DNA from: Accumulibacter sp.
GTDB lineage: Bacteria > Pseudomonadota > Gammaproteobacteria > Burkholderiales > Rhodocyclaceae
Reading direction: 5' to 3'
Assembly (NCBI RefSeq): GCF_023806635.1
Contig: NZ_JAMTDQ010000023.1
Span: forward strand, 1-64,000
DNA: 64,000 bases
Position 1 is the stretch's first letter; every line of letters starts with the position of its first letter. The translations under genes were made by a program, and so were the position numbers. Below the pieces are notes generated by a model. The model had not been told where the DNA came from. It did no database searches and was given only the letters and a program-made list of their open reading frames with translations. Positions 38,753-58,169 of the stretch are shown here, in pieces.

Positions 38753-40479
38753 ATGCGCATCCTGCTCCTTTGCCATGCGTTCAACAGCCTCAGCCAGTGC
38801 CTCTACTGCGAGTTGGCCGGTCGCGGCCACGTGCTGTCGGTCGAGTACGACATCGCCGATTCGGTGGCCGAGGAGGCGGTGGCGCTCTTCCGCCCCGATC
38901 TGATCATCGCTCCCTACCTGCGGCGAGCGATTCCGGAAACGATCTGGCGTGCGCACTGCTGTCTCGTCGTCCATCCGGGAATCGTCGGCGATCGCGGGCC
39001 GTCGGCGCTCGACCGGGCGATCCAGGACGGCGAGCGTGCGTGGGGCGTGACCGTGCTGCAGGCGACCGGCGAGATGGACGCCGGTCCCGTCTGGGCGTCG
39101 GCGGTCTTCCCGATGCGTCTGGCCCGCAAGTCGAGCCTCTACCGCCACGAGGTGAGCGAGGCGGCGACCCGGGCCGTGCTGTGCGCGGTCGAACGTTTCT
39201 CACGCGGCGATTTCGTGCCGCTGCCGCCGTCGCAGACGGTGACCGCGGCGGGCGGCGAACTGCGGCCGCTGCTGCGACAGGCGGAGCGGGCGATCGACTG
39301 GCAGCGCGACGACAGCCGTCGCGTCCTCGCCCGTCTGCACGCTGCCGATGGCTTTCCGGGCGTCGCCGACGAGCTGTTCGGCGAGCCCTGTCTGCTCTTC
39401 GACGCCTGGCCCGAAGACATCCTGCGCGGTGGTCCTGCCGGCGCGGTGATCGCCTGGCGCGAGACGGCGATCCTGCGCGCCACCGTCGATGGCGCGGTGT
39501 GGATCGGCCATGTCCGCCGCTGCACGCCGCCTGATTCGCTGAAACTGCCGGCGGCGGAGGTCTTTGCCACGCAACTCGCCGGCATCCGCGAAGCGCCGCT
39601 GTCCGCGTCGCCCGCCGCCTGCTGGGCGGCGCCGCACCGTACCTGGCAGGACATCCGCTACGAGGAGGCCGATGACGTCGGCTTCCTGCATTTCGAGTTC
39701 TACAACGGGGCGATGAGCAGCCGCCAGTGCCGGCGCCTGCTGGCGGCCTACGACTGGGTCAGGCAGCGGCCGCTGCAGGTCATCGTCCTCATGGGCGGGC
39801 GCGACCTCTGGTCGAACGGCATCCATCTGCAGCAGATCGAGGCCGCCGAATCGCCGGCCGACGAATCATGGGCCAACATCGACGCCATCGACGATCTCGC
39901 CGAGGCGATCATCCGCACCGACGACCGGCTGACGATCGCCGCCCTGCAGGGAAACTGCGCCGCCGGCGGCTGCTTTCTCGCCCGCGCCGCGGACATCGTC
40001 TGGGCACGCGCGGGCGTCGTCCTCAACCCGCATTACCGCAACATGGGCAATCTGTATGGTTCCGAGTACTGGACCTACCTGTTGCCGGCCCGGGTTGGCG
40101 AGATGGCGGCGGCAGCGATCATGCAGCAGCGGCTGCCCTTGAGCGCCAGCGCCGGCGTCTCCGCCGGCCTGCTCGATGCCTGCCTGGCGAACGATCCGGA
40201 GTCCTTCCGCATCGACGTCGCGCGGCGCGCACGCGAACTCGCGCAGGCGCCCGGTCTCGCCAGCCGCCTGCGGGAGAAGCGCGCGCGCCGCGCGGCCGAC
40301 GAGCTGCAGCGGCCGCTGGCAGACTACCGCGCCGCCGAAATGGCTGAACTGGAGCGCAACTTCTACGGTTTCGACCCGAGTTACCACATCGCCCGGCACC
40401 ATTTCGTGCACAAGACCCCGCACTCGTGGACGCCCCGCCATCTGGCGATTCACCGCGAGCTTGGCTGGCAGCCTGCACC

Positions 40480-40483
<4 letters not shown>
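38753..40483 (+). CDS. hypX: CO-ligand synthase HypX/HoxX
   Basis: HypX makes the active-site CO from formyl-tetrahydrofolate under aerobic conditions. The 576-residue protein has an N-terminal formyltransferase-like domain (VHPGIVGDRGPSALDRAI, about 72-89; EMDAGPVW) and a C-terminal enoyl-CoA hydratase-like domain (QGNCAAGGCFLARAADIVWAR; LNPHYRNMGNLYGSEYWTY). HypX is typical of bacteria that mature hydrogenase in air, so this host probably does too. Its stop overlaps hoxA as ATGA. Confidence 0.93.
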
Positions 40484-46840: not shown

Positions 46841-47389
46841 TCAGGGGAAGCGGTCGGCAGCCGCCAGCGGCGGTGCGCCGGCATCCTTGCGGGCGAGAAT
46901 CGGCGGCCCATCGAGCGGCCAGTCGACGGCGATGTCCGGGTCGTTCCAGAGCAGGCTGCGCTCGTGTTCCGGCGAGTAGTAGTCGGTCGTCTTGTAGAGG
47001 AACTCGGCGCTTTGCGACAGCACCAAGAAGCCATGGGCGAAGCCCGGGGGAATCCACAACTGCCTCTTGTTCTCTCCGCTGAGTTCGTGACCGACCCAAC
47101 GGCCGAAGGTCGGCGAGTGCTGGCGCAGATCGACCGCGACGTCGAAGACCATCCCCTGCACGACCAGCACCAGCTTGCCCTGGGCCTTCGGCGGTAGTTG
47201 GTAGTGCAGTCCGCGCAGGACGTTGCGGGCGGAGCGCGAGTGGTTGTCCTGCACGAAGGAGGGTTCGAGGCCGGTTGCGCGGGCGAACGAGCGGGCATTG
47301 AAGCTCTCGAAGAAATATCCGCGTTCGTCGCCGAAAACTTCCGGTTCGATCAGCAGGACGTCGGGAATGGCGGTGGCGGTGACGATCAT
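46841..47389 (-). CDS. rfbC: dTDP-4-dehydrorhamnose 3,5-epimerase
   Basis: RfbC/RmlC epimerises dTDP-4-keto-6-deoxyglucose on the way to dTDP-L-rhamnose. The 182-residue cupin enzyme has FGDERGYFFESFNAR, FVQDNHSRSARNVLRGLHYQ with the catalytic His, and FAHGFLVLSQSAEFLYKTTDYY. It is the last gene of the block, about 130 nt after rfbD. The rfbA and rfbB genes needed for the precursor are not in the window. Confidence 0.93.
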   Translation of the reverse strand: MIVTATAIPDVLLIEPEVFGDERGYFFESFNARSFARATGLEPSFVQDNHSRSARNVLRGLHYQLPPKAQGKLVLVVQGMVFDVAVDLRQHSPTFGRWVGHELSGENKRQLWIPPGFAHGFLVLSQSAEFLYKTTDYYSPEHERSLLWNDPDIAVDWPLDGPPILARKDAGAPPLAAADRFP

Positions 47390-47520
47390 CCGTGCTCCGG
47401 TTCCTGTCTTCTCGCTGGCCGGGCTTCCCTGGTCGTCGAGGTTGCAGCGGCGGTCGCCACTCTGCTGCCGTCGGTGTGGGGCCGCGATGCGGCGAAGGGG
47501 AGCCGGCTGCCAGGCATCGT

Positions 47521-48417
47521 TCAGGTGCCGAGGATCTGCTGCAGAACGTGTCGCACGCCCCTATGCCAGTGTGGCAGCTCCAGGCCGAAGGCATGCTGCA
47601 GCTTGCGCGTGTCGAGTCGGGAGTTGGCGGGGCGGCTGGCGGCAGTCGGGTATTCGGCGGTCGAAATCGCCGTGATCGTTTCCGGTTTCGCCCGCAGCTG
47701 CCTGCCCGCACGGATCGCTTCGTCGACGACGAAGCGGGCGTAGTCGCACCAGTTGGTGTCGCCGCCGGCGACACAATGGTAGATTCCGTAGGGGAAGGCT
47801 TGCAGGTCGTCCGCTCGTTGCTGCTGGCGAACGAGGTGGGCGGTGATGTCAGCCAGCAGCGCAGCCGAAGTCGGGGTTCCCCACTGGTCGCCAACGACGC
47901 CGAGACTGTCGCGCTCGCTCGCAAGCCGCAGAATGGTCTTCGCGAAGTTGCCGCCGTGGGCACCGGCAATCCAGCCGGTACGCAGGATCAGGTGGCGCGG
48001 GGTGGCCGCCTGCAGGGCGACTTCGCCCTCACGCTTGCTCTGACCGTAGGCGCTGCGCGGTCGGGTTGCGTCCAGTTCATCGTAGGGACCTTCCTTGCTG
48101 CCGTCAAAGACATAGTCGGTCGAGTAGTGCACGACGAACGCGCCCAGCCGCGCCGCTTCCTCGCCGAAGACTCGTGGCGCGGTCGCGTTGACCGCGAAGG
48201 CCTGATCGCGCTCGGTCTCCGCTCGGTCCACCGCGGTGTGCGCTGCCGGGTTGACGATGATCGCCGGGCGGACCGCACGGACCAGTTGGCGGATGGCCGC
48301 GGGCTTGGCAAGGTCGCACTCCGCCCGGCCGATCGCGACGACCTCGCCAAGCGGCGCGAGCGCTCGCTGCAGTTCGAAGCCGACCTGGCCATTCTTGCCG
48401 CTGAGCAGGATCTTCAA
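47521..48417 (-). CDS. rfbD: dTDP-4-dehydrorhamnose reductase
   Basis: RfbD/RmlD makes dTDP-L-rhamnose with NAD(P)H. The 298-residue SDR has the nucleotide loop GKNGQVGFELQRAL near the start, VVHYSTDYVFDG, the YGQSKREGE catalytic Tyr/Lys motif, and RTGWIAGAHGGNF. No ATG is available; the TTG at 48417 gives the family's normal N-terminus. It begins 75 nt after a terminator that ends the tRNA-Arg transcript. Confidence 0.9.
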   Translation of the reverse strand: MKILLSGKNGQVGFELQRALAPLGEVVAIGRAECDLAKPAAIRQLVRAVRPAIIVNPAAHTAVDRAETERDQAFAVNATAPRVFGEEAARLGAFVVHYSTDYVFDGSKEGPYDELDATRPRSAYGQSKREGEVALQAATPRHLILRTGWIAGAHGGNFAKTILRLASERDSLGVVGDQWGTPTSAALLADITAHLVRQQQRADDLQAFPYGIYHCVAGGDTNWCDYARFVVDEAIRAGRQLRAKPETITAISTAEYPTAASRPANSRLDTRKLQHAFGLELPHWHRGVRHVLQQILGT

Positions 48418-48491
48418 GGTGGCAGGTGGTGTCGCCGCGCGGTTCGGTGGATGAAATAAGATTCTCGCATGGACGGCTGCCGGGAGGCGAC

Positions 48492-48516
48492 AAAAAAGCC
48501 ACCGCGACGGTGGCTT
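48492..48516 (-). terminator. Terminator after tRNA-Arg
   Basis: On the minus strand AGCCACC, a 5-nt loop and GGTGGCT are followed by six T residues. It lies 17 nt after the 3' end of the tRNA, an unusually clear intrinsic terminator for this window. Confidence 0.85.
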
Positions 48517-48532
48517 CAGTGTTTGCTGCCAG

Positions 48533-48609
48533 TGGCACGCCCGGAGCGATTCGAACGCCCGACCCCTTGGTTCGTAGCCAAGTACTCTATCCATCTGAGC
48601 TACGGGCGC
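48533..48609 (-). tRNA. tRNA-Arg(ACG)
   Basis: A 77-nt cloverleaf: acceptor GCGCCCG with CGGGCGT, and D arm GCTC-GAGT. The anticodon stem CTTGG-CCAAG has loop CTACGAA (anticodon ACG, 48573-48575). The T arm is GGGCG-CGCTC with TTCGAAT, followed by discriminator G and an encoded CCA. It reads CGN codons after A34 deamination. Confidence 0.97.
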
Positions 48610-48766
48610 CTTGCCGTGTTTGAGGGCAGGATTATACTGGGCGGATGGCGCGTGCTCAAGCACAATTTTGCACTCTTGTACTGTTTCCACCCGGATCACC
48701 CGCTTGCCGGGGATGTGAACGCGCGCGCCTGCGCGGTCGTGCGGGAGCCGGGTTCCGCTGCGCGTA

Positions 48767-49543
48767 TCAGGGCGTCGTCGCGCTCCGGCGCGACGCGCCA
48801 GCTGCCTCGGGTTCGGACTCTTCGAAGAGCATGAGCGATTCGCCATCGTCGATCGGTTCCGCTCGCTTCCCACCATCCTTTTCCCGCGGCACGATCTCCG
48901 ACGGGTTGCCACCCAGCAGGTGATACTGCTCGCGCAGGGTCTTGGCGTCCGGATTGTATTCGAGTCCGGTCCTGACCAGTTGCTTGGCCTCTGCCTTCTG
49001 TCCGGACCGAATCAGGTGCTCGGCCCAGTGCGAATATCCGGGCGAGTAATCGGGTTTCAGCGCCCTGGCCTCGGCGAAGGCCCTGCTCGCTTCCGGCGGG
49101 CGTCCGCGACGCAGTTCGATCTCGCCGATGCCGGCGTAGATCTCGGGGAGCAGGATGAAATCGCGGTTGCTGTTCCGGATCACATACCAGTAGTCGCCGA
49201 CCACGGTGCCGAGAAGGAACTGCCTTTCCTGTTCGGTGGTGCTGCTGCGCATCGCTCGCTGCAGGTTCAACTTCCCCCAGCAATAATGGTGCAAATGCCA
49301 GAAGGTCGGGCCCAGGATGGCGACCCAGCGCTTGGCTTCGGCGGACGGGGCGCCGGGCGTTCCGCTCCTGCCATGGCTTGCCGTGTAGGGGCAGTAGCTT
49401 GGGGCTGCGGCCATCTCGGCAGCCGTAACGTTCTTCACCTGCGCACTGGCGACCCCGGTCAGGCTCCACAGGGCGATGACGCAGGCAAGGCGTACGACTG
49501 GATGGTCAGGGAGGTGGCGGGACCGGTTGGCATCGCTGAACAT
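48767..49543 (-). CDS. Secreted TPR-repeat protein
   Basis: This 258-residue protein has an N-terminal signal peptide/anchor (about 16-34, ACVIALWSLTGVASA) and a Cys/His/Trp-rich segment (PTFWHLHHYCWGKL). Two to three tetratricopeptide repeats (about 130-215) follow, including IYAGIGEIELRRGRPPEASRAFAEARALKP. The tail is acidic and low-complexity. It is probably a periplasmic scaffold for the adjacent glycan machinery; function not recognised. The ATG was placed to keep the signal peptide. Confidence 0.75.
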   Translation of the reverse strand: MFSDANRSRHLPDHPVVRLACVIALWSLTGVASAQVKNVTAAEMAAAPSYCPYTASHGRSGTPGAPSAEAKRWVAILGPTFWHLHHYCWGKLNLQRAMRSSTTEQERQFLLGTVVGDYWYVIRNSNRDFILLPEIYAGIGEIELRRGRPPEASRAFAEARALKPDYSPGYSHWAEHLIRSGQKAEAKQLVRTGLEYNPDAKTLREQYHLLGGNPSEIVPREKDGGKRAEPIDDGESLMLFEESEPEAAGASRRSATTP

Positions 49544-49785
49544 GCTCGGCTTTCCTGTTCTCAGGTGGGGTGGTGGGAGGTCACGGTCAGCGCCGGTGGC
49601 TCGCTGCGCACTGCGTCCCGTTCGGGTTTGTGCCATCCTGGTCGAGGTGGCTGGCAGCGTATCGTGCCGGCGACGGTCTTGCAGCGCCGTCGGCATGATC
49701 CGGCGCACTTCGCATTCTAGCGGCACTCCGCGGAACATGGCAGCCTGCGCGCCGCAGCCGGACTGTGCTGCCGGAGATGTCGCCA

Positions 49786-50910
49786 TCAAGCAAGAGCGTT
49801 GGTTGCTTCCTGGATGATCCGTGCCTGCTCGTCCTCGAGACCGAGCCACAGGGGCATGCGAACCAGCCGCTCGGACAGTGAATCGGTATGACCCATGCTG
49901 CCGCAGATGCGTCCGAGTTGCTGGCCCATGGGCGCGCTGTGCAGCGGGACGTAGTGGAACACCGTGCCGATGGCGTGCGCTCGCATCGTTTCTATGAAGC
50001 GCGTTCGGCGTTCGAGGTCGGGCAGCAGCAGGTAATACATATGCGCGTTGTGCGAGCAGTCGCGCGGAATGATTGGCCGCCGGCAGGCACCCTTCTCCTC
50101 GGCTCGCCGGAACCACTGATGGTAGGTCGACCAGAGGGCAAGCCGGCGTTTGTTGATGGCGTCTGCTTCTTCCATCTGCGCCCAGAGGAAGGCGGCGATG
50201 ATCTCTCCGGGGAGATAAGAAGAGCCGATGTCGACCCAGGTGTACTTGTCGACCTGCCCACGGAAGAACTGACTGCGGTTGGTCCCCTTCTCGCGAACGA
50301 TCTCGGCCCTGGTCACCAGGCTGGCATCGTTGATCAGCAGTGCACCGCCCTCGCCCGAGATGATGTTCTTCGTCTCGTGGAACGACAGCGCTGCCAGGTG
50401 ACCGATGCTGCCGAGAGGCCGGCCCTTGTAGGTGGCCATGATGCCCTGCGCCGCGTCCTCGATGACCAGCAGGCCGTAACGTCGGGCAATGTCCATGATG
50501 CTGTCCATCTCGCAGGCGACTCCGGCATAGTGCACGGGTACGATCGCCCTGGTGCGCGGCGTGATGGCTTGCTCGATCCGTGTTTCGTCGATGTTGAGCG
50601 TATCGGCCCGGATGTCGACGAAGACCGGTACCGCACCCCGCAGGGCGAAGGCGTTGGCGGTCGAGACGAAGGTGTAGGAGGGCATGATCACCTCGTCACC
50701 CTCCTTGATGTCGGCCAGGATCGCCGCCATCTCCAGCGCTGCGGTGCAGGAGTGGGTGAGCAGGGCCTTGCGGCAGCCGATGCGGCTTTCCAGCCAGTTG
50801 TTGCAGTGCCGGGTGAACTGGCCGTCGCCGGCGAGGTGTCCGGCGGCGTGTGCCTGTGAGATGTACCAGAGTTCCTTGCCGGTCATGTACGGCTTGTTGA
50901 ACGGGATCAT
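49786..50910 (-). CDS. wecE: dTDP-4-amino-4,6-dideoxygalactose transaminase
   Basis: WecE/RffA converts dTDP-4-keto-6-deoxy-D-glucose and glutamate to dTDP-Fuc4N. This 374-residue PLP enzyme follows the E. coli WecE sequence closely: EVIMPSYTFVSTANAFALRG, PVHYAGVACEMD and EDAAQGIMATYKGRPLG. The catalytic Lys lies in SFHETKNIISGEGG, followed by EKGTNRSQFFRGQVDKYTW. All key residues are intact. In E. coli it serves enterobacterial common antigen, but no other ECA genes are here. It lies in the Arn-like glycan cluster. Confidence 0.92.
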   Translation of the reverse strand: MIPFNKPYMTGKELWYISQAHAAGHLAGDGQFTRHCNNWLESRIGCRKALLTHSCTAALEMAAILADIKEGDEVIMPSYTFVSTANAFALRGAVPVFVDIRADTLNIDETRIEQAITPRTRAIVPVHYAGVACEMDSIMDIARRYGLLVIEDAAQGIMATYKGRPLGSIGHLAALSFHETKNIISGEGGALLINDASLVTRAEIVREKGTNRSQFFRGQVDKYTWVDIGSSYLPGEIIAAFLWAQMEEADAINKRRLALWSTYHQWFRRAEEKGACRRPIIPRDCSHNAHMYYLLLPDLERRTRFIETMRAHAIGTVFHYVPLHSAPMGQQLGRICGSMGHTDSLSERLVRMPLWLGLEDEQARIIQEATNALA

Positions 50911-50977
50911 GAGTGTTGGTCCGAACGCGATGTCGAAGTGGGGCCAAGGCGAGGCGTGGGTCGGGCTTGCTTGTTGA

Positions 50978-51358
50978 TCAGCGAGTCATGATCACCAGGC
51001 CGGTGACCACCAGCAACGTGCCCAGGATTCGCTGCAGCGAAAGCGCCTCATTCAGAAAGACGACCGAGAAAGCCATGACGATGAGGAAGGCCAGGCTCAT
51101 GAACGGGTAGGCGTAGTTCAGGTCGAGGCGTGTCATGGCTGCCATCCAGGCCAGCGAGGCGAGAAAGGCGGACGCCAGGCCGGTCATGATCCATGGGTTG
51201 AGGAACTGCAGGAGCAGGAATTGCAGCTTGCCGAGCGTACCTGCGGGCATGGGGCCGACGCTGCCCATCTGCCACTTCAGAACGAGCTGGCCGTACACCG
51301 TGAACAGCAGCGTGAGCGCAATGTATACGTGTCCGGGAATGTCAAATCTCGCCTGCAT
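50978..51358 (-). CDS. Small EamA/SMR-like membrane protein
   Basis: This 126-residue protein with four helices has the EamA/small multidrug resistance fold: YGQLVLKWQMG at the end of helix 1, MTRLDLNYAYPFMSLAFLIV and ALSLQRILGTLLVVTGLVIM. Its size and position between an aminotransferase and a GT39 match ArnE/ArnF, the candidate flippases for undecaprenyl-phosphate aminoarabinose. GGAGAA 6-7 nt upstream supports the ATG. I infer a lipid-linked sugar flippase. Confidence 0.75.
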   Translation of the reverse strand: MQARFDIPGHVYIALTLLFTVYGQLVLKWQMGSVGPMPAGTLGKLQFLLLQFLNPWIMTGLASAFLASLAWMAAMTRLDLNYAYPFMSLAFLIVMAFSVVFLNEALSLQRILGTLLVVTGLVIMTR

Positions 51359-51602
51359 CGGGCTTTCTCCTCGTCAAGGTCCGCCAACCGGTGGTCTTGC
51401 CCGCGATCTGTCGGCGGGGGGTTGGCCTGGTGGTGCCCCGGCGATCGACGTCTGGCGGCGCTGCTGCTCGTCTTCCCTGGGAGCCTGCCGCGCGCAGACC
51501 GCGGCACCTCCAGCGGCGTCGCGAACGATAGCGCGAGGAGAAGCTGGTGAATGTGATCGAATGATCAGTCATCGTCAGATTTCCGCCGGCGCAGCACGCG
51601 CC

Positions 51603-53261
51603 TCAGCGCGCTTCCGCGTCGGCGGTGTCCGCCAGGCAATCGGCTCTGATGCCGTAGATCGTCGCCGGCAGGGGGCGTGCCAGCAAGTCCAGCTGCCTTG
51701 TCACCTTCTCGGCGATCACGGCAGGCAGGATCGCTGCGGCAGAACGCAGACCGCTGACGACCCATGAACCGAGTCCCATGCCGGCCGGCTCGAGTTCGCC
51801 GAGGCGGTGCCAGCAGCGGGGAAGACCATCCTGGCGTGAATACGGGCCCTGCTGGCCCCAGTCCGCAGTCTGGCGATCGAAAACCGCGTAGGCGACGAAT
51901 CCGTCGGCGTCCGCCTTCAAGGCCACGCCCGGGGCGTTTCGGGCGAGCAACTGGATATCGGCGATGCGTGGCGCATCGGCTGGGGACGTTGCGAACAGCC
52001 GGGCGTAGTTTCCGGTGCGGATGGCGCTGGTCATGCCGAAGACGACGCTGTCGGGACGCTCGCGGGCGTAATGAAGCGCCGCCTTGCTGTTCGCCACGAA
52101 GGACTGGATGACCTGTTGTTCAAGTGCGGTGCCAATGATGCCGAGGGGAATGATCGCCCCAACGGCGACCAGGGTCGCCAGGCTGCGGCCGAGGCGCGAC
52201 AGTGCATAGCCTGCCAGCAGGGAGAGCGGGGCGAGGAACACGATGGCGTAGTTCACCTGCTTGGTGATCAACAGCAGCGGTCTGAACGAGACGATGAACA
52301 GGCTGAAAACGCCGATCAGTCCGAGGCACCAGATGGCGATACGGGTCAGGCCGTCGTCGTGCCGATTCCGCGTCAGCCAGAGAAGGAGTCCCGCCACTGC
52401 CAGTGGCCCGAGCAGCCAGGTGTGCTTGATGTCGAGCAGGAGGAGCCGCAGGTAGAAGGTCGGGTCGTTGCTGCTGCTCACCTTCTGGACGTACTCGGCG
52501 GCGCCCGAGGTCGTCATCCGCCAGATCTTCCAGAAGTCGTCTTCCATGATCAGGAACAGCAGTCCGTTGAGCACGAGCATTGCCAGGAAGCCAGTGGCCA
52601 TCAGCAGCCACTTGCCATGCAGCCGCCTTTCGCGAACCACGTAGAGGGCAAAGACGAGGACGTAAACCAGCGCGACCGAGCTCTTGATCCACCAGACGAA
52701 GCCGGCTGCCAGCCCGGCGCAGAGGTAGTACGCTCGCCGACCGCTGCGATCGCCCTCGAAGAGGGCGAAGAAGCTCAGGCTGATGAAGAAGGCGAGTGGC
52801 GCGTCGGCCATCAGGCGCCCGGCATAGTGGGCGTGCAGGGGGGTGAAGGCGAGGACGAGTCCTGACAGCACGGCCGCCCGCTCGCCCCAGAAGCGCCGCG
52901 CGATCAGGTAGACGAGGGCGATTTCGCCCAAGGAGCAGAGCAGGGACCAGAGGTTGGCAACGAACTCGCTGCGGCCCAGCATCGAGACGAGGAAACCGAC
53001 CGGCAGGCTGATTCCCAGGCGAACGGCGCCGATGTAGTCGGAGCGCGCCCATTCTCCGTGCGCAATCTTCAGCGCCTGCTCGGTGTAGGTCACTTCGTCG
53101 GAACCGAAGCAGCCGGTGAAGAACGCCAGGCGCAGGGCCAGGGCAGCCAGGAGCAGCGCGGGGAGCAACCAGTGGGTGTTGTCCCGGGACGCACTCCCAC
53201 CCGCCGCGGGCTGGCCCGGCTGAACCGCGAAGACGGCGCGGCGCTGCTCGCCGCTGATCAT
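51603..53261 (-). CDS. GT39-family (ArnT-like) membrane glycosyltransferase
   Basis: This 552-residue polytopic protein with about eleven helices has the PMT/ArnT-type N-terminus. The first loop carries the catalytic acid region TGCFGSDEVTYTEQALKIA (about 50-68), followed by SRPV-like bundles and VLAFTPLHAHYAGRLMADAPLAFF. Such enzymes transfer a sugar from a polyprenyl phosphate donor to lipid A, glycan or protein on the periplasmic side. The start overlaps the stop of the amidohydrolase-like gene as ATGA. The acceptor is unknown. Confidence 0.82.
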   Translation of the reverse strand: MISGEQRRAVFAVQPGQPAAGGSASRDNTHWLLPALLLAALALRLAFFTGCFGSDEVTYTEQALKIAHGEWARSDYIGAVRLGISLPVGFLVSMLGRSEFVANLWSLLCSLGEIALVYLIARRFWGERAAVLSGLVLAFTPLHAHYAGRLMADAPLAFFISLSFFALFEGDRSGRRAYYLCAGLAAGFVWWIKSSVALVYVLVFALYVVRERRLHGKWLLMATGFLAMLVLNGLLFLIMEDDFWKIWRMTTSGAAEYVQKVSSSNDPTFYLRLLLLDIKHTWLLGPLAVAGLLLWLTRNRHDDGLTRIAIWCLGLIGVFSLFIVSFRPLLLITKQVNYAIVFLAPLSLLAGYALSRLGRSLATLVAVGAIIPLGIIGTALEQQVIQSFVANSKAALHYARERPDSVVFGMTSAIRTGNYARLFATSPADAPRIADIQLLARNAPGVALKADADGFVAYAVFDRQTADWGQQGPYSRQDGLPRCWHRLGELEPAGMGLGSWVVSGLRSAAAILPAVIAEKVTRQLDLLARPLPATIYGIRADCLADTADAEAR

Positions 53262-54049
53262 ACCGGCACCTGGTAGCCGGCAAACAGGCGTTCGAGGTTG
53301 CGGTACATGATGTTCTCGACACGGTGTGCTTCGATGCCCTCGCTGAGCAGGGCGAAGCGTTCGAGGATCCTCGCCGGCGGGTACTCGGGGAAGTCAGAGC
53401 CGATGGTGATCAACTGGTCGGTCGTCGAGAAGAGGTAGCGCATGTCGTCGTCGAGGCGGCTGCCGGCGTAGCGCATCAGCGTGAAGGAAAAATCGAGCAT
53501 CAGGTTCGGGTTGGCGCGCACGATCTCGAAGAGGTCGAGCATCGACGGACCGGCGGCGTGCAGCAGCAGGATGCGCGTGTCCGGGCAGGCGTTGGCGATG
53601 TAGTCGATGGTGTCGGGGGCATTGGTCGTCGCCAGTCCGCGACGCCGGAAGAGCGTGTCGAGCAGGATAACCAGCCCGTGCTCGGCTGCCGCGTCGAAGA
53701 CGGCGATGCATTTCGCGTCGAGCGGATCGTAGCCGTTCATGCGCGGATGCAGCTTGATGCCGGCGAAGCCCTGCGCTGCCAGTTCGGACACCACCGCCTC
53801 GACCCGGCGCAGCGTCGGCAGGGTGCGCGGGTTGAGCCCGGCGATCGGGACGAAGCGCTGCGGATGCGCGCGCGCCGACTCGATGATCACTTCGTTGTCG
53901 ACGTAATCGGCGATAGCCACCAGGCAGGCACGGTACACATCGGCCTCGTCCATGTCCTGCAACAGCCGCGCAAGCGTTGCGTCGTAGCGCCGCTCGCCGC
54001 ACCAGCTGCCGTCACGGGTGACGTGCGTCAGCGAGTCGAAGAACTTCAT
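53258..54049 (-). CDS. Amidohydrolase-fold protein
   Basis: This 263-residue TIM-barrel protein resembles amidohydrolase family 2: FAGIKLHPRMNGYDP, VILLDTLFRR, RILLLHAAG and LITIGSDFPEYPP (the C-terminal Asp of the family). The N-terminal metal motif, normally HxH, reads FFDSLTHV, so the first His is missing. It may use one metal, a different reaction, or be a binding protein. It is co-translated with the GT39 gene and 20 nt from the ATP-grasp gene, so it belongs to the glycan pathway. Confidence 0.72.
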   Translation of the reverse strand: MKFFDSLTHVTRDGSWCGERRYDATLARLLQDMDEADVYRACLVAIADYVDNEVIIESARAHPQRFVPIAGLNPRTLPTLRRVEAVVSELAAQGFAGIKLHPRMNGYDPLDAKCIAVFDAAAEHGLVILLDTLFRRRGLATTNAPDTIDYIANACPDTRILLLHAAGPSMLDLFEIVRANPNLMLDFSFTLMRYAGSRLDDDMRYLFSTTDQLITIGSDFPEYPPARILERFALLSEGIEAHRVENIMYRNLERLFAGYQVPV

Positions 54050-54069
54050 CCTGCTCTCCTTTCAGTCAA

Positions 54070-55287
54070 TCAGCCGATGCTGGTGAATCCGTCGTCGCCA
54101 GCCATGCGGACCCGCAACAGGGAAATGGCACGCCGGGCGATCTCAATGACCTCGGCCGGGTTGTCGGCGAGGCTGACAACATAGCCGGGGCGGCGATCCT
54201 TGTGCTCGAGCGGACCGACTTCATCACCGGCTTGCAGGTTGAAGTGGACTGCGACGACACCGGCAACCGCGGCTGCGGCGTCGGCCCCGCCGATTTCCGC
54301 TATCGTGCCCCGTGGCATGCTGAAGAACTCGATGTTTGCGGCTCGTGGCACCGCCAGCGGGTTGATGTGGACCGGCTCACCGAGTGCCCGTTCGATCATC
54401 GCCTGATTCACGTTGACCCCCGAGATGTGCGGCAGGACGTGGGTGTAGATCATGTCGCCGCCGCCGCGCGCAGCGATGTCAAGTGGCACCACGTGCTCGC
54501 CGCTGAGCATGAACTCGGCGTGGAATACGCCATCCTGGAGACCGAGCACCGACAGCGTGAAGCAGACCGTTGCCCGGATGCGCTCGAATTCGGCGTTTGG
54601 CAGCGCTCCCGGATAGTGAATGCGGGATGAGACGGTGAGCGAATCGGCAAACGGCACCTTCCGGGCGATGCCCAGGATCCGGGCCGTTCCGGCAACCACG
54701 AAGCCGTCGACGATGATCTCGCTGCCGTCGACGCAGCTTTCGATCAGAACCTCACCCGACCGCGAGCAGCTTCGCGCGAGACGGTAGGCGGCATCCAGTC
54801 CGTCCGGTCCGGACAGTCTGCTGACGCCTCGCCCCGACTGGCTGTCCACCGGCTTGACGATCAGCGGGTAGGCGACTTCTGCCGCCGCCGCCGTCAGACC
54901 GGCGGCCGACGACAGCAGGCGGTAACGGGGAACGACCATGCCGGCGGCGGCGGTCAGGCGACGCATCCGCCCCTTGTCGGTGAAATTGCGCGCCGTCTCG
55001 TAGCCGATTCCCGGCAGTCCGAGTCGCTCGGCGACGAAAGCGGCGGTCGCGACGCCGACATCGGTGGTGTCGCAGATGATGCCGTCGATGCGGTAGCGCG
55101 AGGCAAGCTGCAGCGTCGCTCCGCAGTCGGTGATATCGACCACCTCGTGCTCGTCCGCCAAGGCATAGGCTGGCCGCTCGCGATACATGTCGCTGACCAG
55201 CACGCGGTGCCCGAGGGCCTTGGCGAGTCGTACGGTCGGCAATTGCCATTGCCCGCCTCCCAGCACATGCAGCAGTTTCGCTTTCAT
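54070..55287 (-). CDS. ATP-grasp ligase
   Basis: This 405-residue protein has a pre-ATP-grasp Rossmann part (VLGGGQWQLPTVRLAKALGH, about 8-27) and an ATP-grasp core: YPLIVKPVDSQSGRGVSRL, VLIESCVDGSEIIVDGFV and DIAARGGGDMIYTHVLP. Enzymes of this fold join an acid to an amine or thiol using ATP. In a glycan cluster with an amino-sugar transaminase, amide formation on the 4-amino group or on a carried amino acid is likely. It overlaps the WbqC gene by 4 nt. Confidence 0.82.
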   Translation of the reverse strand: MKAKLLHVLGGGQWQLPTVRLAKALGHRVLVSDMYRERPAYALADEHEVVDITDCGATLQLASRYRIDGIICDTTDVGVATAAFVAERLGLPGIGYETARNFTDKGRMRRLTAAAGMVVPRYRLLSSAAGLTAAAAEVAYPLIVKPVDSQSGRGVSRLSGPDGLDAAYRLARSCSRSGEVLIESCVDGSEIIVDGFVVAGTARILGIARKVPFADSLTVSSRIHYPGALPNAEFERIRATVCFTLSVLGLQDGVFHAEFMLSGEHVVPLDIAARGGGDMIYTHVLPHISGVNVNQAMIERALGEPVHINPLAVPRAANIEFFSMPRGTIAEIGGADAAAAVAGVVAVHFNLQAGDEVGPLEHKDRRPGYVVSLADNPAEVIEIARRAISLLRVRMAGDDGFTSIG

Positions 55288-56030
55288 CCGGCGTTGCCCG
55301 CCACTGCCGCCGGCAGCCGCGCCAATGGGTCACGCCGGTCGCTGCGCCAGCCCCAGATGTACCACGGAGCGTCCGGGCCGACGCTGAACAGCAGATCGAG
55401 AATGGTGACTCCATGCACGAAGGGTGGATGCGGCTGGACGTATTCCGGGTAGCCAGAGTAATCCTGCCAATGCAGCTCGATTCCATGCTCCGCAAAACGA
55501 CTTTCTTCGATGTAGTCCCTGGCGGCTGGGCCTGAAAGGTAGGAGCTGGCCGCGCAGCGATCGAGGAGATCGAGAATCCGCTCCTGCTTGCTGCCGCGTG
55601 CAGCATAGGTTCGCGAGTCGGCAAACTCGCTCCGGATCCCCAGCATCTCGCGCGCGATCATCATGATCAGGTGCTGGTTGAGGTCGGACAGGTGGTCCCA
55701 GCGTCGACCGAGATAGACCTCCTGCAGAGACTCGCGGTAGGAGTGGAAGAATGGCGCCTTGCTGTAGGACTGTTCGATCGACTTCCAGTGCTTGCCTTGC
55801 CAACGTGGATCGGTCAGTCGCACGTCGCAGATGCGCTTGTCCTGGTCACCATCGGTCGGGACCGTCAACCACTCGGCGCCGCGCGTGGTCTTGATCCGGT
55901 TTCGATTGCGCCAGTCACGCCGCGTGTATTGAACGTCATCGTAGAACACGAAGAGGTCCACACTGTGGATGATGTCGAAGTAACCCTTCCACGGCAGGTA
56001 GTTGGATTGCAGGATGGCAACGGATTTCAT
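55284..56030 (-). CDS. WbqC-family protein
   Basis: This 248-residue protein begins with the WbqC signature AILQSNYLPWKGYFDIIHSVD (shown split: AILQSNYLPWKGYF, DIIHSVD). It continues FYDDVQYTRRDWRNRNRIK, KHWKSIEQSYSKAPFF and SVLDLLF-like VTILDLLFSVG. WbqC proteins occur in O-antigen clusters with acylated amino sugars; the biochemical role is not settled. It is co-translated with the ATP-grasp gene. Confidence 0.85.
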   Translation of the reverse strand: MKSVAILQSNYLPWKGYFDIIHSVDLFVFYDDVQYTRRDWRNRNRIKTTRGAEWLTVPTDGDQDKRICDVRLTDPRWQGKHWKSIEQSYSKAPFFHSYRESLQEVYLGRRWDHLSDLNQHLIMMIAREMLGIRSEFADSRTYAARGSKQERILDLLDRCAASSYLSGPAARDYIEESRFAEHGIELHWQDYSGYPEYVQPHPPFVHGVTILDLLFSVGPDAPWYIWGWRSDRRDPLARLPAAVAGNAG

Positions 56031-56202
56031 TTCAGGCTTCCCATCTCCTGCAATCGCGGGGCTTCGCTGTTGCGCTGAACGCTCCACCCTGCCGGAGCCT
56101 TCGCCGGGTTCCGTTCGACCGGGCCGCGCGCCCTGCAGCCGACGATGGCGGGGGGTGGCGTCCGGCGGCAGCGCGGCAAGCGGCGCGTGGGAGCTCTACG
56201 CA

Positions 56203-57186
56203 TCACCGGTGGATGTCCTTGACGATATAGTTCGGCCGGTTCTGGACCTGCGTGAAGACCTTGCCCAGGTAGACGCCGACCAGCCCGATGGCCATGGTCA
56301 GGATTCCCAGGCTCAGCGCCATCAGCCCCATGACCGAAGTGAAGCCGATCAGGGCATCGCCAAACAGCAGCTTTCTGATCATCAGGTAGATGACGTAGGA
56401 AAAGCTGACTGCGGTGACGAGGGCGCCAAAGTTGAACAGCCAGACCAGGGGTTGCGCCGAGAACGAACTGACCGCGTTGACCATCAGGCTGACGCGCTTC
56501 AGGAGCGTGTAGGTGCTCGCTCCCTCGCGCTGGCTCTTGCCCACTGCGATGCCGATCTGGTGAAAGCCGGTCCAGCTCATCATCCCGCCGAGGAACAGGT
56601 TGTGGTCGCCCAACTGCAGTAGCGCGTCGACGAAACGGCGGTTCATCAGGCGCTCGGTGACGATGTTCTCGGGAATCCTGGTTTCGCTCAGGAGGTTGAA
56701 TCCCTTCCAGAAGAGGCCGCCGCTGATCCGTTCGAACCAGCCCCCCTTGCGCCTCTCCTGATAACCGAAGACGATGTCACAGCCGGTCTCGCGCAGTTTG
56801 TCGTGGAATGAACACAGGCTCAACGGGGAGACCTCGAGATCGCAGTCGATCAGGAAAACCAGGTCGCCACGTGCCTGCCGCAGGCCCGCTTGCATGGCAT
56901 GGTGATGGCCAAAATTGCGTGACAGGTCCACGACCACGAGTTCCGCCAAGTCGTGGCGGCGTGCCAGCAAGTAGTCGAGGGAATCGTCAGGTGAGCCGTC
57001 GTTCACCAGGACGATTTCGAAGTCGCTGATGGCGAGCCGGCGCAGAGCCTCGAGGCAGCCGTCGAGGAAGTCTTCGAGAAAGGGCCGCGAACGGTACAGG
57101 GTGGAAACGATGCTGATCTGTGGTCGTGGCGCCTCAACAATCGGCTGCGGTGGGCCCTGGATCAGCGCGTGCAACGGTGTTGGCAT
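56203..57186 (-). CDS. GT2 polyprenyl-phosphate glycosyltransferase (GtrB/ArnC-like)
   Basis: This 327-residue protein has a GT-A domain: SIVSTLYRSRPFLEDFLD, FEIVLVNDGSPDDSLD, VVDLSRNFGHHHAMQAGL, and the DxD-like LVFLIDCDLEVSP. It closes with two C-terminal helices and YLGKVFTQVQNRPNYIVKD. This layout is that of GtrB, ArnC and DPM synthases, which put a single sugar on undecaprenyl phosphate. It is probably the committing step of the cluster. The ATG at 57186 lacks a ribosome site; start uncertain by some codons. Confidence 0.87.
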   Translation of the reverse strand: MPTPLHALIQGPPQPIVEAPRPQISIVSTLYRSRPFLEDFLDGCLEALRRLAISDFEIVLVNDGSPDDSLDYLLARRHDLAELVVVDLSRNFGHHHAMQAGLRQARGDLVFLIDCDLEVSPLSLCSFHDKLRETGCDIVFGYQERRKGGWFERISGGLFWKGFNLLSETRIPENIVTERLMNRRFVDALLQLGDHNLFLGGMMSWTGFHQIGIAVGKSQREGASTYTLLKRVSLMVNAVSSFSAQPLVWLFNFGALVTAVSFSYVIYLMIRKLLFGDALIGFTSVMGLMALSLGILTMAIGLVGVYLGKVFTQVQNRPNYIVKDIHR

Positions 57187-57524
57187 GGTCGGTGGTGTTC
57201 CACTATGGTATTGATGGCGAATGCTGTGGCGACCGGTATGGGCGGCTGCTGTCCTGCAGTCGCGTTTCACCGATCAGGACGCTGCAAATGATAACGCGTG
57301 GATCACATGCATCCAGCCAAATAAATCACGCGTTTAACCCTGCTGCCGTGCTGCCGAACTGCCGCCGCGAGTAGCGCCTGTTGCCGTACGGAGATTCGAC
57401 CGCATCGGCCAGCGTTGCATCCGGTCACTCGACTGCGGCGCCCTGCTGATCTCGTCAAGGCCGCAACCAGCGTGGCGTCGGAGCAAGCCGCGTCGCCACG
57501 CTGGGGCGGTCTCGGGACAGCGTT
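57187..57524. other. Intergenic stretch with AT-rich island
   Basis: No gene is seen. The part at about 57283-57345 is clearly richer in A and T than its surroundings (GATAACGCGTGG, CCAAATAAATCACGCG). It lies upstream of the minus-strand GT2 gene, so it probably holds the promoter of the glycan operon. Exact hexamers are not clear. Confidence 0.4.
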
Positions 57525-58169
57525 TCAGTCGCGGACGCGGCGCGCTGGCGTGCCGACGTAGAGGCCGGGCGCGTCCAGGTCGTGTACGACGACAGCGCCG
57601 GCGCCGGTGCGCACCCCGGACGCGATGTGGATTCCGTCCGAGACGACCGTCCGAATGCCCAGGAACACAGCCTCGTCGATCAGCACATTGCCGGCGATCA
57701 CGACACCGGGTGCCAGGAAGCAGTGGTCTCCCACGACGGAGTCGTGCGACAGCGAGCACGCGGGGTTGACGAACACGTTGCTGCCGATCCGGGCGCGCAG
57801 GTCAAGCGAGCAGGCGCCGAGAACGACGGAACCGGGGCCGACGTCCGTCATCGGTCCGCGCACCACGGACGGATGGATGAGCGTCGCCGGAGTCATGGCG
57901 GAGAGCAGCCGCCCGTACACCAGCGCGCGCCCAGTCATGCTCTGGTAGCCGATCCCGACAAGGAACGACGGCCATGCGTTTCCGCGCACGGCCGCCGCAT
58001 CGCAAGTCCCCCCCAGAACCTTCGCAGGACCGACATCCTCGCCTGCCGGGCGCCGGTCATCCAGGAACCCGGCAACATCGAATCCGCCCCATGTGGCGGC
58101 GTGCACCGCGATCTGCAGCGCCAATTCGCGAGAACCGGCGATGATGAGAGAGGGACGAGATCCGCTCAT
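57525..58169 (-). CDS. NeuD/PglD-like sugar O/N-acyltransferase
   Basis: This 214-residue protein has an N-terminal Rossmann-like substrate domain (LIIAGSRELALQIAVHA, VAGFLDD) and a C-terminal left-handed beta-helix of hexapeptide repeats. The catalytic His lies in VNPACSLSHDSVVGD, followed by FLAPGVVIAGNVLI and GAVVVHDLDAPGLYVGTPAR. PglD relatives acetylate the 4-amino group of UDP-4-amino sugars, which fits the WecE product here. It is upstream of the GT2 gene in the same direction. Confidence 0.87.
   Translation of the reverse strand: MSGSRPSLIIAGSRELALQIAVHAATWGGFDVAGFLDDRRPAGEDVGPAKVLGGTCDAAAVRGNAWPSFLVGIGYQSMTGRALVYGRLLSAMTPATLIHPSVVRGPMTDVGPGSVVLGACSLDLRARIGSNVFVNPACSLSHDSVVGDHCFLAPGVVIAGNVLIDEAVFLGIRTVVSDGIHIASGVRTGAGAVVVHDLDAPGLYVGTPARRVRD

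Follow-up and report, generated by a model that had tools for sequence, protein, structure and literature searches.

Here we present an analysis of an eight-gene cassette in a 64,000-nucleotide stretch of DNA from a wastewater bacterium, Accumulibacter sp. (assembly GCF_023806635.1, contig NZ_JAMTDQ010000023.1, positions 1 to 64,000), hereafter the window. The cassette probably encodes an Arn-like single-sugar export pathway for N-acylated Fuc4N, of which the acyl part is a set of genes swapped by relatives while the carrier part stays. A description as one member of a modular family suits the locus better than that of a unique, re-tooled Arn locus. It occupies the minus strand from 58169 to 49786, and its genes, each named in an earlier note made from the sequence alone, are all real open frames at the coordinates given there, with families matched by profile search:

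57525..58169, minus strand: NeuD, NeuD/PglD/VioB-type sugar N-acyltransferase with hexapeptide repeats, accessory, 214 amino acids (TIGR03570 148.4 bits; PF00132 Hexapep)
56203..57186, minus strand: GT2, ArnC/GtrB-type polyprenyl-phosphate glycosyltransferase, 327 amino acids from the ATG at 57186 (PF00535)
55284..56030, minus strand: WbqC, proposed 4-amine acylation enzyme (PF08889 262 bits)
54070..55287, minus strand: ATP-grasp, putative carboxylate-amine ligase of the L-amino-acid-ligase (LAL) type (PF18603 LAL_C2 65.5 bits; PF13535 59.1 bits)
53258..54049, minus strand: AmdH, amidohydrolase-fold protein and predicted ATP-grasp partner (PF04909 Amidohydro_2 61.1 bits, cut-off 26.4)
51603..53261, minus strand: GT39, ArnT-like GT-C (GT39/PMT) glycosyltransferase (PF13231 PMT_2 53.5 bits)
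50978..51358, minus strand: EamA, EamA/ArnE-ArnF-like small flippase candidate (PF00892 33.8 bits)
49786..50910, minus strand: WecE, predicted dTDP-4-keto-6-deoxyglucose transaminase, product dTDP-Fuc4N (NCBIfam 629 bits, cut-off 375)

Matches above curated cut-offs were obtained for WecE, for the neighbouring RmlC and RmlD, and for PF08889, PF13231, PF18603, PF04909, PF00535, PF00892 and PF00132. The ATGA couplings, described in the earlier note as several, number two, WbqC/ATP-grasp at 55284-55287 and AmdH/GT39 at 53258-53261; the remaining intergenic gaps in the cassette measure 20 to about 340 bases.

Predicted pathway and carrier genes

We infer the reactions, their order, the acyl group and the acceptor as follows. 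RmlA and RmlB each have one above-cut-off match in the genome, both on contig C42, away from the cassette; therefore dTDP-4-keto-6-deoxyglucose should be available, these two enzymes being its likely suppliers. WecE, which scores 623 and 629 bits against TIGR02379 and NF008687, above cut-off, and is 60% identical to E. coli WecE and 30% identical to ArnB, would aminate this intermediate to dTDP-Fuc4N. The 4-amine would then be acylated by the group formed by WbqC, ATP-grasp and AmdH (and NeuD), in which ATP-grasp may activate or ligate a carboxylate (an amino acid or a hydroxy acid is probable), the acyl group may be trimmed or matured by AmdH, WbqC would act as a core enzyme in forming the amide and a cap may be added by NeuD. 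GT2 would load the acylated sugar onto undecaprenyl phosphate, the EamA protein would flip the lipid-linked sugar towards the periplasm, and the ArnT-like GT-C would pass the sugar to an acceptor outside.

The view of GT2 as ArnC-like agrees with its solved relatives, which include ArnC (1e-33) behind sll0501 (5.9e-48); the protein is 27% identical to E. coli ArnC and scores 126 bits against the NCBIfam ArnC model, for which the cut-off is 529. The ArnT-like character of GT39 stands in so far as ArnT and further GT-C enzymes lead its matches among solved structures, and is tempered by the low confidence of the predicted model (pLDDT 61). In a Foldseek search with that model ArnT ranks first (2.1e-4), and the first 18 matches are what we take to be GT-C enzymes or complexes containing one. 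A DE..Y motif lies at residue 55, as at ArnT residue 31, and hhalign gives a probability of 68.5% for GT39 against E. coli ArnT.

These carrier genes bear on a second explanation, a Gtr-type side branch, in which the GT-C would decorate an O-antigen or exopolysaccharide, whose genes lie elsewhere in the genome, with acylated Fuc4N. It overlaps with the pathway outlined above, differs from it in the acceptor only, and is a substantial possibility that we place short of an even chance. A GtrB-like GT2 and a GT-C also make up the Gtr set, some sister loci have GtrA where the window has EamA, and the position of RmlA and RmlB on contig C42, apart from the cassette, fits this explanation as well.

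Occurrence of the carrier unit and exchange of the acyl genes

The earlier note had proposed a search for the same gene set in related genomes, and the set proved not to be a one-off. Among 28 Accumulibacter genomes, the window's own included, WecE (E <= 1e-100) is present in 11 and AmdH in seven, all within those 11. In 7/7 AmdH-bearing genomes ATP-grasp adjoins AmdH, with WbqC, GT2, EamA and WecE near, and six of the seven also carry the window-type GT39; adjacency of AmdH was taken from the homology map, the gene finder having merged AmdH into its neighbour in some maps. An uncultured Burkholderiales contig (L065) holds GT2, WbqC, a second GT2, ATP-grasp adjoining AmdH, and EamA in a changed order, and ends before any WecE. 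Because these six genes occur together in 7/28 genomes of the genus and, without WecE, in L065, they are more than chance neighbours. Beyond the genus ATP-grasp is rare, being found at 1e-30 in one of 299 other genomes of the order sample. Among the matches listed, Candidatus Accumulibacter adjunctus (L060) is the closest record that bears a name, with a WbqC 96% identical to the window's. Four pairs of loci (L060/L140, L061/L144, L077/L146 and L009/L121) appear to be duplicates, one contig entered in two collections, and each pair was counted once.

It seems very unlikely that WbqC, ATP-grasp and AmdH serve to make or modify a compound unrelated to Fuc4N and came to lie here through chance gene exchange. 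WecE, GT2, WbqC and EamA lie beside AmdH in all seven AmdH-bearing genomes among the 28 of the genus, and the ATGA overlaps couple WbqC to ATP-grasp and AmdH to GT39. What speaks for such an explanation is the occurrence of AmdH/ATP-grasp relatives in nonulosonic-acid loci with an ArnB-like aminotransferase, not WecE, together with the identity of WbqC to four of its siblings, which falls much below that of the genes around it. WbqC is 96% identical to its closest relative (L140) and 60-64% identical to those of L141, L142, L144 and L145, in which AmdH is 93-96% and WecE 88-97% identical to the window's; therefore WbqC itself seems to have been exchanged within the operon. In L142 (5695-9078), EamA and WecE are separated by genes for a further ArnC-like GT2, for a GtrA-like protein and for a large membrane protein, an insert that resembles a second carrier unit; L145 is similar.

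At the level of the order, 49 of 399 genomes have WecE, and 48 of these loci, the window included, could be read (L048, which holds WbqC and in which WecE was uncalled, was left out). The earlier claim of a carrier unit was borne out: an ArnC/GtrB-like GT2 lies within 10 kb of WecE in 32/48 loci, and 28 of those 32 have a small flippase, either an EamA or a GtrA protein. Of the GT2-bearing loci, 13 carry WbqC only, 16 carry a GNAT only, none carries both and three carry neither; over all 48 loci the counts are 16 with WbqC, 17 with GNAT and none with both. The Fisher p value of 3e-6 for this exclusion is overstated, because the sampled genomes are related and the counts are not independent. 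Acylation on N4, as previously suggested, is supported because WbqC and GNAT never co-occur in WecE/GT2 loci and because sister loci hold acyl-activation genes; aminoacylation, which had been offered alongside it, is one option among several. One of the three loci with neither gene (L006) has an ATP-grasp beside GT2, a GtrA-like protein, WecE and a GT-C, and L009, with the same genus label, has WbqC and NeuD and a GT-C 71% identical to that of L006.

The earlier note had regarded a standard O-antigen locus with Wzx/Wzy as contrary to its proposal. We compiled 47 membrane proteins, 46 from the GT2-bearing loci (>=350 amino acids, >=6 predicted spans, within 10 kb) and the GT-C of L006, the GT-C of L009 being dropped. 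By Pfam, six of these are PMT_2, six have ABC transporter regions, five are MBOAT and one is Wzy_C; no member of a Wzx family was found in this set, which was drawn from the 32 order-sample loci, the named-record WbqC loci lying outside it. A locus of the contrary Wzx/Wzy kind was not encountered in this sample.

A census of WbqC in named records covered 80 loci, of which more exist (L138, uncalled, was left out). By raw counts, a DegT aminotransferase is present in 63/80, of WecE grade in 55/80; the figures are 35 and 30 among the 40 loci with >=20 kb of sequence. Two loci labelled Roizmanbacteria and archaeon (L069, L074) carry WecE/WbqC genes, possibly through binning errors or transfer. 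Across these 80 loci and the order and genus sets, several acyl modules were seen. An ATP-grasp-like/HAD fusion with a methyltransferase occurs in at least 10 WbqC loci (L062, L063, L070-L072, L080, L087, L088, L090, L138), with families read in L063 and L087 and the other loci assigned by BLAST; in L063 and L087 the ATP-grasp part is recognised by a PylC-like N domain, by matches of carbamoyl-phosphate-synthase type and by a weak match to ATP-grasp_3. L070 and L071 are of the Pelomonas/Roseateles type, which includes culturable bacteria. A shorter ATP-grasp adjoins a metallophosphatase in at least six (L018, L079, L086, L122, L139, L148), with families read in L148 and for the phosphatase alone in L018. 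FkbH, which loads a glyceryl unit onto an acyl carrier protein (ACP), occurs with an ACP in at least three, of which two are from Nitrosospira and one is from Accumulibacter (L117, L127, L142); it scores 269 and 287 bits in L117 and L142 (cut-off 146.65) and was assigned by BLAST in L127. Formyltransferase relatives are present in L028 and at least three named-record WbqC loci. Read by gene content, the carrier unit recurs and the acyl genes are exchanged, and the window's ATP-grasp and AmdH are one more exchangeable acyl module of WbqC loci.

Several observations weigh against the proposed pathway. An ArnC-like GT2 is lacking from 16/48 WecE loci and from 3/16 of those with WbqC (L047, L049, L051), a WecF-like transferase standing in its place in L051; therefore neither WecE nor WbqC alone predicts the pathway. 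Within the genus, G690 (L147) has WbqC, ATP-grasp and AmdH without the window-type GT39, and the contig of G693 (L143), which ends just past GT2, has GT2, EamA and WecE and holds no WbqC, ATP-grasp or AmdH. The EamA protein scores 44.6 bits against NCBIfam ArnF, under the cut-off of 99, and NeuD scores 148.4 bits against NeuD_NnaD (TIGR03570), under the cut-off of 160.8. The GT39 model is a low-confidence one, phmmer found no solved relative of GT39, and the DE..Y match was not found in the GT-C of the sister locus L006. In ATP-grasp the aligned metal motif has D in place of the E of the L-amino acid ligase BL00235. An HxH metal motif near the N-terminus is expected in PF04909 amidohydrolases, and AmdH is short of one His, reading FDSLTH in the window, L060, L061 and L065.

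Acyl genes and neighbours of the cassette

In the PDB, ATP-grasp matches L-amino acid ligase BL00235 (4.1e-17), and the protein holds the LAL_C2 and ATP-grasp domains of that type (PF18603, PF13535). AmdH is 88-98% identical within the genus, and D5, H9, K99, H101, D131, H164 and D219 are kept in 6/6 aligned proteins. Outside the genus, relatives were found in two of 298 other genomes of the phylum sample (L056, L057), both with the HxH intact, and in five of 368 other genomes of the class sample. For the latter five, seven regions were fetched, of which one (L186) has ATP-grasp; the six others, with weak AmdH matches, showed no ATP-grasp. The loci of L056, L057 and L186 have matches to NeuB, NeuA and an ArnB-like aminotransferase, and they share ATP-grasp and one methyltransferase type (22% in L186). 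No GT2, EamA, GtrA, WbqC or GT39 match was seen in L056 and L057 at E 1e-3, nor an ArnC-like GT2, flippase or WbqC match in the nonulosonic-acid locus of L186 at 1e-5. The close AmdH relatives therefore track ATP-grasp and not the carrier lipid. Since AmdH accompanies ATP-grasp in nonulosonic-acid loci without carrier genes, it probably serves acyl chemistry rather than ArnD-type deprotection, and on this ground we put aside a role as ArnD analogue.

That role belongs to a further explanation, in which acylation protects the sugar transiently, as it does in Arn: the acyl group would be put on for the GT2 step and taken off by AmdH on the lipid carrier before flipping, with free Fuc4N reaching the acceptor. 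Its appeal lies in a gene-by-gene correspondence with ArnB, the ArnA formyltransferase domain, ArnC, ArnD, ArnE/F and ArnT, and in the annotation of ArnD as a putative deformylase of an undecaprenol-linked sugar. We consider it improbable, given the relatives in L056, L057 and L186, which keep company with ATP-grasp and a methyltransferase, the presence of AmdH in only 3/80 of the WbqC loci listed, the missing His of its HxH, and a BLASTP comparison that gave no match between AmdH and ArnD.

WbqC, for which the proposed pathway has the central acylation role, belongs to a family that, in the portions of the literature available to us, is called functionally uncharacterised in one paper and given a suggested role in O-antigen production in two. 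An AlphaFold2 model from 74 sequences reached a pLDDT of 93.3; its alignment comprised 73/79 called WbqC proteins and the window's, those of L109, L113, L115, L121, L127 and L137 being left out. Q8, K15, R43 and N44 are invariant in it. The top Foldseek match in the PDB was BshC (E 5.6e-3, probability 0.99, TM 0.44 by query length), and no PDB match reached E 0.001; weaker matches included a cytidylyltransferase, presumably of the HUP type (probability 0.57), and tyrosyl-tRNA synthetase (0.33). Sequence homology between WbqC and BshC was set aside, since hhalign gave probabilities of 0.2 and 0.1% in two alignments (7 BshC sequences, L173 being dropped from the second) and phmmer and profile searches of the PDB with WbqC found nothing. 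A stretch HQPN...GY common to an L008 paralogue and BshC was spotted by eye only. The available part of a 2015 review (PMC4360819) describes BshC as the putative ligase of cysteine to GlcN-malate, with in vitro activity not shown as of that date.

The BshC fold match, made with a predicted model, is a lead that agrees with the genetic evidence, and no demonstration. A more specific and rather doubtful suggestion is that WbqC might be a BshC-like, HUP-fold enzyme that forms the amide between the 4-amine of dTDP-Fuc4N and an amino or hydroxy acid. The genes swapped around it (LAL-type ATP-grasp and AmdH; ATP-grasp, phosphatase and methyltransferase; FkbH and ACP; formyltransferase; NeuD) would then build or cap the acyl group, yielding a combinatorially varied, single-sugar surface label borne on undecaprenyl phosphate.

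NeuD has VioB, perosamine N-acetyltransferase and bacillosamine N-acetyltransferase among its PDB relatives. The nearest relative of the window, L140/L060, gave no NeuD match, and about 470 bases lie there between GT2 and the gene upstream of it, versus about 1240 in the window (the NeuD region).

Beyond the WecE end of the cassette lie four further genes:

48767-49543: TPR gene, between the WecE end of the cassette and RmlD
48533-48609: tRNA-Arg gene, between the cassette and RmlD
47521..48417, minus strand: RmlD (dTDP-rhamnose; NCBIfam above cut-off)
46841..47389, minus strand: RmlC (dTDP-rhamnose; NCBIfam above cut-off)

RmlD and RmlC (46841-48417), set apart by the TPR and tRNA-Arg genes, are probably not cassette members; they also neighbour the cassette in L140-L142. 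The TPR-repeat protein adjoins the cassette in the window, L140-L144 and L147, in the last of these beside otherwise different flanks. A search for an empty site in cassette-less Accumulibacter, anchored on the TPR gene, found none: the 10 regions examined contain TPR relatives of 42-61% and lack the remaining site genes. Elsewhere in the window, the gene at 38753-40483 on the plus strand encodes an enoyl-CoA hydratase domain together with the N and C domains of a formyltransferase, a set we take to be that of the hydrogenase maturation factor HypX.

Significance and relation to known systems

These results suggest that Arn-like undecaprenyl-phosphate pathways are not confined to the cationic masking of lipid A. 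Many environmental bacteria seem to display a 4-amino sugar on the same carrier chassis, with the acyl group swapped by gene cassettes, and, as a conjecture, such exchange could plausibly diversify the surface that phages, grazers or biofilm partners meet. The uncharacterised WbqC family gains a concrete, testable role. Judged on titles and abstract openings, we found no published description of the cassette. A paper on the genus (PMC12925313) names dTDP-Fuc4N among the nucleotide sugars in the legend of a figure and calls the distribution of accessory nucleotide sugars irregular; the words WecE, undecaprenyl and amidohydrolase are absent from its main text.

With Arn, which places L-Ara4N on lipid A, the cassette seems to share an aminotransferase, an ArnC-like GT2, a small EamA-type protein and an ArnT-like GT-C. 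It differs in a WecE-type start, with dTDP-Fuc4N as the predicted sugar, in adding WbqC, ATP-grasp, AmdH and NeuD, and in having one small flippase gene where Arn has two. The earlier description of a re-tooled Arn pathway is best taken as a likeness in function rather than as established descent: a BLASTP comparison of 13 window proteins at 1e-3 gave no counterpart of ArnA or ArnD.

BshC is the best solved fold match to WbqC, and both would link a carboxylate to a sugar amine; WbqC, however, is about half its length, and sequence profiles give no support. In the viosamine and anthrose types, an unusual acyl group is placed on the 4-amine of a dTDP-4-amino-4,6-dideoxyhexose by other acyl enzymes; we know of no transfer of such sugars via an undecaprenyl monophosphate carrier. 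Enterobacterial common antigen (ECA) draws on the same nucleotide sugar through WecE, and the GNAT of 17/48 WecE loci is weakly similar to its RffC in the one member compared (22.8 bits); ECA, however, uses WecA, WecF, WzxE and WzyE, whereas the cassette has an ArnC-type GT2 and the membrane proteins compiled above include no Wzx family. Finally, the Gtr-type O-antigen side-branch set consists of a GtrB-like GT2, a small flippase and a GT-C. The window has EamA instead of GtrA, and, unlike that set, its cassette holds genes for amino-sugar synthesis and acylation.

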